Assembly: GCA_944325535.1 (NCBI GenBank)
Contig: CALVAL010000010.1
Coordinates: 1-40,497 of the forward strand
Direction of reading: 5' to 3'
DNA: 40,497 nt
Source: Candidatus Gastranaerophilales bacterium
Lineage (GTDB): Bacteria > Cyanobacteriota > Vampirovibrionia > Gastranaerophilales > Gastranaerophilaceae
Below the pieces are notes generated by a model that had not been told where the DNA came from, made no database searches, and saw only the letters and a program-made list of their open reading frames with translations. Position numbers and translations under genes: made by a program. This document shows positions 23,188 to 28,428 of this stretch, piece by piece (position 1 is the first letter of the stretch; each line of letters opens with the position of its first letter).

Positions 23188-24150
23188 CTACACAATCTCT
23201 TTTTCTTTGATATATCTAGGTCTTGCCTTGACTTCATTAAAAATTTGTCCCATATATTCGCCAATTATTCCAAGACAAAATATTTGAAGCCCACCAAAGA
23301 ATGCAAGTAAGATTACCAATGTCGCCCAGCCACTTGGTGCTGTATGGAGAATGTATTTTTCAAAAAGAACTTCTAAAGCTAGCAAAAAGCTGCCTAAGAC
23401 TGTTAATACTCCGACTGCTGCAATAATTCTTAAAGGCACTATACTAAAAGCTGTTATTCCATTAAGCGCAAGACTTGTTAGTGAAAAGAAATTGAACTTT
23501 GAACAGCCTAAGGCTCTTGGCTTTACATCAAAATGTACATAAGCAGTTTTTAAGCCTAACTCATGGAAAAAGCCTCTAAGAAAAAGTCCTTCTTCTGAAT
23601 ATTTTTCTAAGATATCAAGCGCTTTTTTACTTACAAGTCTAAAATCTGAATGATTAGGAGGGATTTTTACCCCTAAAATATTCATTAATTTATAAAAACA
23701 AAGTGCTGTATATTTTTTGAAGAACGAATCAGTCTTTCTATCATTTCTTATTCCTGAAACTACTTCAGCTCCGTTATGGAATTCATCAACAAAGATTTCA
23801 ATAGCATTTTCATCCTGCTGTAAATCCGCATCAATTGATACTACACAATCGCATCCAATGTTTTTCACCCCTAAAAGTCCTGCAATAAGAGCTTTTTGGT
23901 TGCCATAATTTCTTATAAACTTCGTTGCTTTTACTCTTGAGCCATATTTTGCGTGCAATTCTTCTATAATTTCCCAAGTCTTATCTTTAGAGCCATCATC
24001 TACTAAATAGATGTAGCTATCATTAGATATTTTACCCTTAGAAATTATACTGTCTAATACTTCCAAAAGTCTTTCTACAGTAGACTTTACTACAAGCTCT
24101 TCATTGTAGCATGGAATAATTATTGCAAGTTTTGTTTTATTTTCGCTCAT
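23188..24150 (-). CDS. Family 2 glycosyltransferase, GtrB/DPM1-like
   Basis: The 320-residue enzyme is of the polyprenyl-phosphate sugar transferase type. It has KLAIIIPCYNEELVV at the start, the metal-binding DxD in VSIDADLQQDENAIE, SDFRLVSKKALDILEKYSEE, and two C-terminal membrane segments (SIVPLRIIAAVGVLTVLGS and LVILLAFFGGLQIFCLGIIG). Such enzymes load a sugar onto undecaprenyl phosphate for GT-C transferases or polymer modification. I chose ATG 24150 with AAGAGGATT upstream; an upstream in-frame start would add only nine residues. The gene is divergent from the ChbG-like deacetylase, hinting at a shared glycan pathway. Donor sugar unknown. Confidence 0.9.
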   Translation of the reverse strand: MSENKTKLAIIIPCYNEELVVKSTVERLLEVLDSIISKGKISNDSYIYLVDDGSKDKTWEIIEELHAKYGSRVKATKFIRNYGNQKALIAGLLGVKNIGCDCVVSIDADLQQDENAIEIFVDEFHNGAEVVSGIRNDRKTDSFFKKYTALCFYKLMNILGVKIPPNHSDFRLVSKKALDILEKYSEEGLFLRGFFHELGLKTAYVHFDVKPRALGCSKFNFFSLTSLALNGITAFSIVPLRIIAAVGVLTVLGSFLLALEVLFEKYILHTAPSGWATLVILLAFFGGLQIFCLGIIGEYMGQIFNEVKARPRYIKEKEIV

Positions 24151-24218
24151 TGTAATCCTCTTGAAATTATAATACAATAAATTATTAGAATAGTGAATAC
24201 TAATTGAGGAAGTGAGCT

Positions 24219-25073
24219 TTGGGGAAAAAATTTATACTAAATGCAGATGATTTTGGAATGAGTGCGGCTTTCAATCAGGCAGTACTTGAAGGATACCAAG
24301 CAGGGATTTTGAAAAGTGCTAGTTTAGTTGCAAATGGTGATGCTTTTGATGAAGCTTGCAAAAATATTATTCCAGCCTGTCCTGATTTAGGAGTTGGTAT
24401 TCATTTAAATATAATTGAAGGGAAATCGCTCTGTCTAAATTTAGATAAGCTTACTGACGAGGAGGGGAATTTTAATAATTCTTTTGGTCAATTACTTCTA
24501 AAATCACTTAATCATAAAGATGATAGCTTTATGGAGCAGTTAGAAAAAGAATTCAGAGCTCAAATTGAGGAAGTTATGAAAAGGACAAAAGTTACTCATA
24601 TTGATTCTCATGTCCATACTCATTCGATTCCAAGGATTTTTGAGCTGGTATGCAGTCTTGCAAAAGAATATGGAATAAAACAAGTAAGAACTCAATTTGA
24701 AAAGCCTTATATTATGCCTGATATTCATAGGCATTTGACTCTTGCATATCCGATAAACTTAATAAAAGTCATGCTTTTGAATTTCTTCACGTTGATTAAT
24801 GAACATACTGTAAAAGATTATGAGTTGAATACAAATGATTACTTAATCGGTGTGACTTATACTTCAATGATGAATAGTCTAGCAATTTCATATGGACTTA
24901 TGGCAATAAAACAAGATGATGTGACTGTAGAAGCTTTAATTCATCCTTGCAGATATGAGGATGGCACAATAGATAATCATTTTGTAGAATTTCAGATTAC
25001 AAAGAATATGAAATTGAAAGAAAAGATTGAAAACTTAGGATTTGAAATCACAAATTATGTCGAGAAAGATTAG
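24219..25073 (+). CDS. ChbG/HpnK-family (YdjC) carbohydrate deacetylase
   Basis: The 284-residue protein has the YdjC fold markers: KFILNADDFGMSAAFNQAV at the N-terminus (metal-binding DD), DLGVGIHLNIIEGKSL, HIDSHVHTHSIPRIF (metal His residues) and ALIHPCRYEDG near the C-terminus. Members remove acetyl groups from N-acetylated sugars, including chitobiose and hopanoid-linked GlcNAc. The start codon is TTG at 24219, with GAGGAAG 8 bases upstream; no ATG or GTG in frame fits the conserved N-terminus. It overlaps the next gene's start and sits divergent to a GtrB-like transferase. The natural substrate is not known. Confidence 0.88.
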   Translation: MGKKFILNADDFGMSAAFNQAVLEGYQAGILKSASLVANGDAFDEACKNIIPACPDLGVGIHLNIIEGKSLCLNLDKLTDEEGNFNNSFGQLLLKSLNHKDDSFMEQLEKEFRAQIEEVMKRTKVTHIDSHVHTHSIPRIFELVCSLAKEYGIKQVRTQFEKPYIMPDIHRHLTLAYPINLIKVMLLNFFTLINEHTVKDYELNTNDYLIGVTYTSMMNSLAISYGLMAIKQDDVTVEALIHPCRYEDGTIDNHFVEFQITKNMKLKEKIENLGFEITNYVEKD

Positions 25074-25644
25074 CATAATAATTTTAATACTCCTAGCAAT
25101 TTGCTATTGCACTTATTTTCTTTTGACTCAAAAAGAGAGTAGTTATGTGACAAAAGTTATTTCTTCAACAGAATTTGTGCTTGATTTTAACAAAAATTTC
25201 TCGATAAAAAATGTAGATTGTTTCGATGCTTATTTTAGCGAAAAGAATAAAATCCTTGCTAAGAAATTTAATATTTCTGAAAAAGAAGCTTTTATTATCG
25301 GGAATTTAGGCAAATATTGGACAAAAAATATTCTTGAGAACAGAAAAGTACAGCCGGAAGAAAATAATCTTATTTTTTATAAATTCGGCTACTTCGAAAA
25401 ATTATCTGATACTCCTTATGCGATTATTGATGGAGAAATAAGCAATAAATACGCTTTTGATAAGCTTTTAAAATCGATTAGAAATACAGAATATGTAATT
25501 GTATCAAACGATATCGCATATCCGATAAACAAAAATTTAAAATTGGATGAATATGTAATCATAAAAAAATCTCAATATGATAGAGTATTAAAAAAAAACT
25601 CACTCAAAAGCAAACAAAATTTTATAGCTACAAGCTCGACTTAG
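25057..25644 (+). CDS. N-terminal part of a membrane-anchored PLD-family protein (frame ends after A9 tract)
   Basis: This is about 195 residues beginning MSRKISIIILILLAICYCTY, a single N-terminal membrane anchor or signal. A region follows that I do not recognise (FVLDFNKNFSIKNVDCFDA, DTPYAIIDGEISNKYAF). The ATG at 25057 overlaps the last codons of the deacetylase. The frame stops at TAG 25642-25644, 44 bases after a run of nine A's. The -1 frame is open from 25584 and continues without a gap into the PLD domains, so this is probably the first part of one longer protein. It may be made as a short product if slippage does not occur. As an independent protein it has no known function. Confidence 0.65.
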   Translation: MSRKISIIILILLAICYCTYFLLTQKESSYVTKVISSTEFVLDFNKNFSIKNVDCFDAYFSEKNKILAKKFNISEKEAFIIGNLGKYWTKNILENRKVQPEENNLIFYKFGYFEKLSDTPYAIIDGEISNKYAFDKLLKSIRNTEYVIVSNDIAYPINKNLKLDEYVIIKKSQYDRVLKKNSLKSKQNFIATSST

Positions 25645-26732
25645 GTAATATAAAGCTGGTTTTAGGCGATTTTACGATTAAATTAAAGCCTGATAGAAAT
25701 TGCACGACTGAAATTTGTAAAGAGATTTTAGGCAATATAAATAATGCAAAAAGTTCAATAGATATTGCAATTTATGGGTATTCAACAGTACCTAAAATTG
25801 AAGAAGCAATCAAAAATGCGATTAATCGTGGTGTAAAAATAAGACTTGTCTATGATTTGGATTCAAATGGTGAAAATATTTATCCAAATACTAATGATAT
25901 CGTAAAATTAATAGCTTCAAACAATTCAGATAGATTTTCAAGCGAAGCCTCAAAAATTATGCATAATAAATTCTACATTTTTGATGAAAAAATAGTTATT
26001 ACAGGCTCTGCAAATCTTTCTCATACTGATCTTTCAGGGTATAATTCCAATTCTATTCTTGTAATTGATTCAAAAGAAGCTGCAAAAATTTATCAAAACG
26101 AGTTTGAGCAAATGTATTCAGGAAAATTTCATAATGATAAGAGTCCAATCCCACAAATAAATCCTCCTAAGAATATGGAAATATATTTTTCACCACAGGA
26201 TAGAATTTATGAAAAAGCTTTAATCCCTATTATAAAAAACGCAAAAAGCTATATTTATATCCCGATTTTTGTACTTAGTGAAAAGCAAATAGTACAAGAA
26301 TTAATCAACGCTAAAAAACGAGGAGTTGATGTAAGAATAATTATTGATGCACTTAATGCAGCAGCTAAGTATTCCAAAGTCAAAGAATTAAGAGGCGGAA
26401 ACATTCTTGTAAAAACTGAGAATTTTGCAGGAAAAATGCATTCAAAAACAATGATTGTTGATGATAAGTATTTAATAATAGGCTCAATGAATTTTTCTAA
26501 TAGCGGTGCTAATAAAAATGATGAAAATATTGTTATTCTTCAAAATAGTCAAGCAGCAGTTTTTTATAAAAAATATTTTTTATACCAATGGTCAAAAATT
26601 CCTAATCGCTGGCTTAATAGCAATCCCTCAGCAGAAGGGAAATATTCTCTAGGCTCTTGTAGTGATGGTATCGACAACGACTATGACGGAAAAATAGATT
26701 TAGATGATGATGCTTGTAAAGCTAGACATTAA
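25584..26732 (+). CDS. PLD-family phosphodiesterase part, joined to the upstream frame by a -1 shift
   Basis: The open frame runs from 25584 and has no start codon suitable for the first PLD repeat; a later TTG would cut into the domain. Two phospholipase D HKD motifs are present, MHNKFYIFDEKIVITGSAN and MHSKTMIVDDKYLIIGSMN, each with the HxKx4D pattern. PLD-family enzymes include cardiolipin synthases and nucleases such as Nuc/Zucchini types. The C-terminus has SCSDGIDNDYDGKIDLDDD, a Cys-bounded Asp-rich calcium-binding-like segment. A combined protein of about 558 residues would be membrane-anchored with the catalytic domain outside. Function is open: lipid or nucleic-acid phosphodiester as substrate. 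Confidence 0.75.
   Translation, partial: SIKKKLTQKQTKFYSYKLDLGNIKLVLGDFTIKLKPDRNCTTEICKEILGNINNAKSSIDIAIYGYSTVPKIEEAIKNAINRGVKIRLVYDLDSNGENIYPNTNDIVKLIASNNSDRFSSEASKIMHNKFYIFDEKIVITGSANLSHTDLSGYNSNSILVIDSKEAAKIYQNEFEQMYSGKFHNDKSPIPQINPPKNMEIYFSPQDRIYEKALIPIIKNAKSYIYIPIFVLSEKQIVQELINAKKRGVDVRIIIDALNAAAKYSKVKELRGGNILVKTENFAGKMHSKTMIVDDKYLIIGSMNFSNSGANKNDENIVILQNSQAAVFYKKYFLYQWSKIPNRWLNSNPSAEGKYSLGSCSDGIDNDYDGKIDLDDDACKARH
25590..25598 (+). other. A9 slippery tract, candidate frameshift site
   Basis: In the zero frame of the upstream segment the codons read TTA AAA AAA AAC, which places the heptamer A AAA AAA exactly in the X XXY YYZ phase used for -1 ribosomal frameshifting. Adding one A (or a -1 slip) joins the two open frames into about 558 codons. 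A sequencing or assembly error, or a true mutation in a homopolymer, would look the same. Confidence 0.6.
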
Positions 26733-26985
26733 TTAAAATCTGGCTAAGCTCTAATAAAATTAGTATTCTTCAAATTTTTGTATAATATTAAGTTTTGTAA
26801 ACATGTTTTTCAAAAAAGTCAATTTTTTTATAAAAAAATACTTCATGAATATATAGGGAAAAATAGGATACAAAAATAGGTAGATGTAAGAATCATTTCG
26901 ATTTATGGTTACAATTTTGGGTTGACAAAGTTGTAATAAGAAAAGAGATGTAGACTTAGTGTATACCAAAGAAAGGCAGGTTTTT
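26733..26985. promoter_or_regulatory. AT-rich gap upstream of the NFKG membrane protein
   Basis: This gap is about 253 bases. It contains TATAAT at 26781-26786, a TTGACA at 26922-26927 without a correctly spaced -10, the palindrome AAACATGTTT, and a ribosome binding site AAAGGCAGG directly before the ATG at 26986. No hairpin terminator for the PLD gene and no RNA gene could be recognised. Confidence 0.4.
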
Positions 26986-28428
26986 ATGTCAGTAAATGCA
27001 GTAGATAGCATAGGATATAATCCATACTCATATGCTAACGATCAAGCTTTTTGGAATGCTTATAATTCTTATAATGTTAATTTCAAAGGTACTCAAGGAG
27101 CTACTGGTACACAAGCTGCAGCTAGTTCTACAGCAAGCACAGATTCTGCATCAACAGCTGTATCAAATTTGCCTAAAGCTGATTATAGCGATGATTCTGG
27201 TATTAGCAGTAAAGGTATTGTAGCCAGTGTCGTTGCTCTAGGGGTCGTTGGAGCAGGCTTATTATATGCTAGTAAAAGGGGAGATGGCAAAGGTATAAAA
27301 GCCGGCTTAAAAAATATTTGGAACGGATTTGTAGGTAAAAGTTCTAGTGCTGCAGATAATGTAGCGGATGCAGCTGCAGAGAAACTATCTGGAGTTATTA
27401 AAAAAGGTGGAAAAAATTTAAAAGAATATACTATTGAAAAAGATGGAATGATTTTTAAAATAAAAGATGTCGGTATTACTGAAATTATTAACAAAGAGAA
27501 AAAGGCAATTACTAATATTGCGGAATGGGAAAGAAGTAATCCGACTTTAAAGGATGCTGTTAATAAAACTATTAGTGAAATTACATCAAGTAGAGATTAC
27601 ACAAAAGTTGGACGAGAAATCGTTTTTGATGGTAAAACTTACGGATTTAAATATGATAAAGACGGTAAAATTATAGATGCTTTCATCAAGAAAGATAGTG
27701 GTGAATTTGAAAGAATTGCAGATATTACTGATTTATTCAATAAAAATTCAGATTTAGCTAAAAAAGCAGAGTCATTTACTTACAGCATGAATGGAGCTGT
27801 TCACCTTAGAGATGGTGCCGGAAATTATGTAGAAAATCTTGGTAAAGATGTAGAATTAGTAATTAGAAATGGTGAAATTTTATCAGCTCGTTATAAAAAT
27901 GGTACTGCTTGGACTGATATAGCGGATCAAGGAACTTTAGATAGATTAAAGACTACATTTAAAGATGATATCCAAAAAGCAGGTAAAGATTTTGATTTTG
28001 GTATAAATACTGAAGCTAAAGATTGTTTCTATGAATATGTAAAAGATAATGATAAGGTATTATTTAGTGCATCATCAAATAAACCTATTGAACATACTAT
28101 TACAACAACTCATAATACAACATCGACAATCAATGATTTTTGGAGTAAAAATGATGCTGTGAAAAAAGAATTAGATAATATTCTATCATCTGGAGAAGTT
28201 CCAAATGCTTATAAATTAGGTAATAATTTCATTTATAAAGATGATTTCGGACAAATCTATACAATAGAAGGTAATGAAATTAAGAAAGTAAAACTTGATA
28301 AATTAACTAATATAGATGGAACTGATTATGTTGCAGGTAGTGTTATTGATGGTGACGTTTTAACAAAATGGCTAGAAACTCCAGAAAATAATAATGCATA
28401 TCAAAAAGTTCTTGAATTATTTAAATAA
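26986..28428 (+). CDS. NFKG-motif protein with one membrane segment, unknown function
   Basis: The 480-residue protein starts at ATG 26986, supported by AAAGGCAGG; the frame extends to an upstream GTG that has no such site. The N-terminus contains NVNFKGTQG at residues 30-38, followed by an Ala/Ser/Thr-rich linker. A hydrophobic segment (about 76-96, GIVASVVALGVVGAGLLYAS) is followed by basic residues. The remaining 380 residues are soluble and unrecognised, with repeated Lys/Asp/Gly-rich strands (for example YGFKYDKDGKIIDAFIKKDS). The positive charges after the hydrophobic segment suggest the long C-terminal part is cytoplasmic. No signal peptide. The layout is similar to the LysM protein at 10968. 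Confidence 0.75.
   Translation: MSVNAVDSIGYNPYSYANDQAFWNAYNSYNVNFKGTQGATGTQAAASSTASTDSASTAVSNLPKADYSDDSGISSKGIVASVVALGVVGAGLLYASKRGDGKGIKAGLKNIWNGFVGKSSSAADNVADAAAEKLSGVIKKGGKNLKEYTIEKDGMIFKIKDVGITEIINKEKKAITNIAEWERSNPTLKDAVNKTISEITSSRDYTKVGREIVFDGKTYGFKYDKDGKIIDAFIKKDSGEFERIADITDLFNKNSDLAKKAESFTYSMNGAVHLRDGAGNYVENLGKDVELVIRNGEILSARYKNGTAWTDIADQGTLDRLKTTFKDDIQKAGKDFDFGINTEAKDCFYEYVKDNDKVLFSASSNKPIEHTITTTHNTTSTINDFWSKNDAVKKELDNILSSGEVPNAYKLGNNFIYKDDFGQIYTIEGNEIKKVKLDKLTNIDGTDYVAGSVIDGDVLTKWLETPENNNAYQKVLELFK

Follow-up and report, generated by a model that had tools for sequence, protein, structure and literature searches.

The window analyzed here is a stretch of 40,497 nt from a single draft genome (114 contigs) of a Candidatus Gastranaerophilales bacterium, in which a gene for a membrane-anchored PLD protein is broken between two reading frames at a run of nine adenines (A9). 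We consider it about an even chance (roughly 0.5) that a slippery A tract has undergone a private indel of one base, displacing the frame, and that a minority of full-length product would still be made through polymerase slippage. We regard the break as a real sequence feature of an ordinary kind, a candidate pseudo-pseudogene.

In the zero frame, the codons across the tract read TTA AAA AAA AAC TCA, and the anchor frame stops at a TAG (25642–25644) 44 bases past the tract. The PLD frame closes with a TAA at 26732, and its earliest ATG, GTG, or TTG (25857) falls within the first PLD repeat. Two heptamers stand in zero-frame phase, A_AAA_AAA (25590–25596) and A_AAA_AAC (25593–25599), and joining the frames would give a product of ~558 residues, 180 up to the tract and 378 beyond it. 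An earlier sequence-only reading had proposed this layout, and the distance to the stop, the lack of a start that spares the first repeat, the in-phase A AAA AAA, and the length of the read-through product were all borne out. Its description of the upstream part as a membrane anchor stands as far as one transmembrane (TM) helix is concerned, but left out what is probably a degenerate SNase-like domain. The arrangement of frames at A9 exceeds chance, because both parts form one ORF in orthologues and this genome has few coding runs of nine A's or more.

Features of the split gene and its upstream neighbors (positions in the window)
Feature	Position	Strand	Basis
GT2-family glycosyltransferase-like gene, syntenic	23188..24177	-	ORF; family named from sequence
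YdjC/ChbG-like gene, overlaps start of anchor ORF	24219..25073	+	Pfam PF04794, E=1.4e-45
Zero-frame ORF: TM anchor and degenerate SNase-like domain (probable)	25057..25644	+	ATG 25057; ORF list
N-terminal membrane helix, residues 2-23	25060..25125	+	Helix H2-23 in AlphaFold model; hydrophobic
SNase-like domain (probable), ~residues 29-118, VxDGDT signature lost	25141..25410	+	Model, Foldseek, BLASTP
PLD frame, -1 relative to anchor frame	25584..26732	+	ORF; PLDc_2 x2, E=4.3e-53
A9 tract, frame junction	25590-25598	+	Letters read directly
First HKD motif, HNKFYIFD	25962..25985	+	H303, K305, D310 invariant in orthologue alignment
Second HKD motif, HSKTMIVD	26439..26462	+	H461, K463, D468 invariant in orthologue alignment
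C-terminal acidic Cys-containing motif, SCSDGIDNDYDGKIDLDDDAC	26655..26723	+	Conserved in orthologues

The AlphaFold model of the zero-frame product (pLDDT 93.7) has a compact domain and one membrane helix. Foldseek searches with the N-terminal domain gave top matches that were all staphylococcal nuclease/SND1, with a probability of ~1.00, E-values of at least 3e-3, and TM scores of at most 0.53. Pfam returned no match for this domain in the window protein, and weak SNase hints only in two relatives. By BLASTP, the N-terminal region aligned (E=6e-7) with the SNase-like part (VIDGDTIYVDFN) of a paralogue on contig C43 of the same genome, which continues into the same type of PLD part and matches SNase-type NCBIfam models below their cut-offs. 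Taken with the structural matches, this alignment makes a degenerate SNase-like domain the probable identity of the N-terminal part of the window protein. Two HxKx4D motifs, both intact, place the downstream part within the PLD superfamily. The C-terminal motif resembles NF033662 at a sub-threshold 24 bits (cut-off 41). As predicted from these features, the whole protein is an envelope-anchored SNase-like/PLD protein with a TM helix, an SNase-like domain, a lysine-rich flexible linker, and a two-HKD domain. Nuclease activity would be favored over lipase activity for the PLD domain, judging from its nearest models NucT, Nuc, and DrmC, although the NucT and DrmC scores are under the curated cut-offs. 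HKD motifs and a double PLDc_2 are shared with PLD-superfamily nucleases (NucT, Nuc 1byr, DrmC-like); unlike these, the window protein is a two-HKD chain that also carries a TM anchor, a probably degenerate SNase-like domain, and an acidic tail with Cys.

The order GT2 gene, ydjC-like gene, and PLD gene is common to the window and its nearest relatives, whose PLD genes are thus true orthologues, and the ydjC-like gene is the upstream neighbor in L111–L117 and other relatives too. On the 3′ side of the PLD gene lies a 489-aa ORF (26959–28428), negative in Pfam, that has a single hydrophobic segment and carries “NVNFKGTQ” as an N-terminal motif. Among the congeners first examined, the orthologue is one open frame of 527–631 aa, and the N-terminal domain is encoded in 60 of the 65 genomes of the genus, nearly all within ORFs of this length. 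An order-wide sample gave a match in 175 of 192 genomes, with frames of ~546–677 aa in nearly all of the best matches listed. Shorter frames occurred in a few, namely G040 and G063 within the genus and G182, G035, and G092 within the order, the G182 frame lying where its contig ends. Within this family, whose members go under the name Candidatus Gastranaerophilales, the gene is near-universal and normally a single ORF. The fused ORF is ancestral. That one anchored PLD protein is the natural product, as the sequence-only reading had supposed, is strongly supported, since relatives encode one ORF; the gene is fused across genus, family, and order, and homologues with two separate genes are not the pattern.

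The tract itself is private to the window. The longest A run in the orthologues examined is A8, and most have A6–A7. Conservation of A9 in relatives had been put forward as a sign of recoding, and the tract is conserved in none of those examined. The three nearest relatives (L111–L113) are 65–67% identical to the window protein across its whole length, and encode the same three lysines as AAG AAA AAA; in the window, the G interruption is gone and the sequence is one base out of frame. At the junction, SAY(S/N)RVF-KKK-(L/Q) in L111–L113 aligns with SQYDRVL-KK(K)-L in the window, so that the break falls in a variable lysine-rich linker. In the model of an intact orthologue (L036), this linker (residues 178–188) is the sole internal segment with a pLDDT of <50. 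Same-species copies across the tract were found neither in the scan of genome contigs nor in the pattern scan of viral contigs, searches from which near-identical records were possibly excluded.

Past the junction, comparison of the window with L111–L113 gave a dN of 0.18–0.20 and a nearly saturated dS of 1.1–1.6, for a ratio of ~0.13–0.16. Relative to six outgroups, the PLD part of the window has a dN ~0.015 above that of its sisters and the upstream part has no excess. If it came wholly from lost constraint, this excess would amount, as a rough estimate, to a few per cent of the branch. Of the 104 PLD columns that are otherwise invariant, the window protein differs at 3, the highest number among the orthologues (0–2 in the others). 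The low dN/dS and the small excess in dN indicate that the PLD frame was translated and under purifying selection up to very recently, or still is now, which would leave three options for the shift: very recent origin, artefact, or rescue.

We also examined A runs across the genome, of which one third was sampled as stretches partly picked around runs of A9 or longer. Expected counts were derived by shuffling synonymous codons in 386 ORFs (439 kb in all, each ORF ≥100 aa). Coding runs of at least nine A's were observed 8 times against an expected 51.7 ± 4.4, and runs of at least ten were observed 0 times against 17.3 ± 2.7. Three consecutive lysines are written AAA-AAA-AAA in 2 of 49 cases, the usual spellings being AAG-AAA-AAA and AAA-AAG-AAA. 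Judged by the Baranov 2005 criterion (PMC1088944), which does not tell transcription and replication slippage apart, this strong depletion points to A9 behaving as slippage-prone in this bacterium; replication slippage alone could account for the avoidance. Around 15 other coding runs of A9–A12 sit within intact ORFs, including an A10 in a 615-aa ORF and an A12 in an rsmD-like gene, and of the runs of at least A9 examined only the one at the junction splits a gene. A broader search, for startless frames that begin within the gene before them, gave one clear case in 664 kb, the PLD gene.

Two further sites came up as candidate second frameshifts and were set aside: at L060:9292 (A9), the signal comes from two neighboring genes, an RBS and a start being present, and at L060:14831 (T16), one gene ends and another then starts. 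The latter run is T16 on the coding strand, at the extreme end of a glycosyltransferase-like gene beside a radical-SAM-like gene. It and a second A16 homopolymer at L059:19787 (contigs C2 and C1, respectively) exceed all other A/T runs seen. The A12 of the rsmD-like methyltransferase ORF (L093:1015-1539, contig C29) is in frame despite the avoidance of coding runs of at least ten A's.

Under the favored explanation, the lysine triplet of the linker, AAG-AAA-AAA in sisters, would have lost its G interruption in this lineage together with the change to TTA just 5′, leaving an unbroken A run that is displaced from frame by one base. The indel would be real in the cells, and most mRNAs would encode no more than an anchored SNase-like fragment of 195 residues. 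Stuttering of RNA polymerase at A9 may give a smaller share of the transcripts an extra A and thereby the full protein, such that the gene would be impaired but not dead. The roughly 15 other coding runs of A9–A12 that remain in frame count against this explanation, the A9 split being one exception, as does the near-universality of the gene in the family.

Several known systems offer comparison. At A9, ~50% altered product is reported for dnaX of T. thermophilus, discussed together with 9A pseudo-pseudogenes (Baranov 2005, PMC1088944). As in those pseudo-pseudogenes, the window gene is disrupted at nine A's, has single-ORF homologues, and lies in a genome that avoids coding A9; in them, mRNA that has gained an A regains the frame, as it would here, in an organism known from a draft genome. 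In tssM1 of C. rodentium, an A11 gives a 20–25% transcriptional shift, shown by experiment, and both products are needed (PMC4256274). Here too a poly-A tract shortly precedes an early stop (28 nt, against 44 bases in the window), a membrane-associated protein is truncated, and ribosomal stimulators are absent, whereas the tract in the window is an A9. Poly(A) frameshifts in Buchnera and Blochmannia are reported to be rescued by polymerase infidelity, with 12–50% corrected transcripts (Tamas 2008, as summarised in PMC5009743). These insect endosymbionts resemble the present bacterium as AT-rich host-associated bacteria with a poly(A) frameshift, and differ in having demonstrated corrected transcripts at their tracts; in the window, the downstream part is still constrained. 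Programmed −1 frameshifts of dnaX and IS elements use in-phase A_AAA_AAA or A_AAA_AAC, as found here, but the window has neither site conservation nor a stimulatory structure, and the gene is not split in relatives.

The headline of the sequence-only reading, programmed −1 recoding, is not supported. In such a scheme, ribosomal frameshifting at A_AAA_AAC would be conserved to set a two-product ratio, and the slippery heptamers are indeed in phase. The relatives, however, lack the tract and have the gene unsplit; the 81 nt downstream (25600–25680, pseudoknots left out) hold no stimulatory RNA structure, with an MFE of −6.2 and a z-score of +1.4 that make them less structured than shuffles; and no Shine-Dalgarno-like stimulator is evident upstream of the tract. 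A conserved signal of this type is refuted by these comparisons, and we regard a programmed shift as very improbable. Transcriptional slippage requires the tract alone; slippage after a private indel is the most likely account. A related proposal, that selection has retained A9 in this species to set the ratio of a short anchored SNase-like protein to the full-length PLD protein, is improbable as well; if true, it would amount to a transcriptional-slippage switch of new origin, specific to one gut lineage. The notion that the gene has become two coupled genes, with an unanchored PLD protein made from a non-canonical start, carries hardly any weight. CTG 25656 does lie in the PLD frame 12 bases past the anchor stop, spares the first PLD repeat, and has an AGG (25643–25645) ~10 nt on its 5′ side, but this AGG is ordinary Leu-Gly coding sequence found in relatives as well, CTG starts are rare, and none of the relatives have the split.

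The chief rival is an assembly or sequencing artefact, with the tract length miscalled in a draft contig and the gene intact in cells, which we consider unlikely but worth serious attention. Homopolymers are sites of indel errors, and the break sits in one; the evidence comes from a single draft genome, the gene is intact and near-universal in relatives, and no clear relaxation of the PLD frame was seen. Against an error, the other long coding runs were assembled in frame, including the A10 and the A12, and a frameshift signature was clear only once in 664 kb; an A10 that kept this gene in frame would itself be exceptional, as 0 coding runs of at least ten A's were observed in 439 kb. Because the gene is near-universal in the family, its real loss is somewhat unlikely, and an error or a strong rescue is favored. 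A plain recent pseudogene, with a real indel and no useful PLD product made, we judge quite unlikely. The nearby stop and the three changed invariant columns speak for it, and the loss might be offset by the genome's four further PLD paralogues, but these are just 43–46% identical and occur in another gene context, the whole PLD frame and both HKD motifs are intact, and an A9 would be expected to slip at least slightly. Phase variation, in which replication slippage alters tract length between cells and switches the full-length protein on and off, has a slim chance. The homopolymer lies within a tolerant linker with a one-base offset, and replicational heterogeneity has been noted for some 9A genes (Baranov 2005, PMC1088944); yet none of the relatives examined keep a long tract, the genome avoids such tracts, and a second gene of this kind is absent in 664 kb.

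The four PLD paralogues are located at L108:2046-4070 (C11), L107:293-2488 (C97), L104:77-2830 (C43), and L109:1433-3049 (C76), each tail-to-tail with a PAPS-reductase-like gene of 255–265 aa. Both of the two PAPS-reductase-like genes scanned matched the PADLOC SspD model (E ~1e-78). Across seven genomes from five genera, 25 of 27 SspD-like matches were convergent with a PLD gene and within ~150 bp of it, with up to six such pairs per genome. Around the two copies whose flanks were read (C11 and C97), there was no sign of a DndC/Ssp operon. The pair looks like a dispersed two-gene cassette, possibly with a role in defence or mobile, and is more unusual than the A9 frameshift. The C43 paralogue (L104:833-2830) has 666 aa, with a signal-like N-terminal helix, a recognisable SNase-like domain, and two PLD repeats, and perhaps represents the ancestral form of the architecture of the window protein.

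For annotation, these results caution that a core PLD gene should be recorded neither as two genes nor as lost, and that A-rich heptamers in phase are not always programmed recoding. Coding runs of A9 or longer are strongly avoided by this AT-rich gut bacterium, apparently through AAG codons set within stretches of lysine, and from this avoidance one would predict transcription or replication that is prone to slippage.
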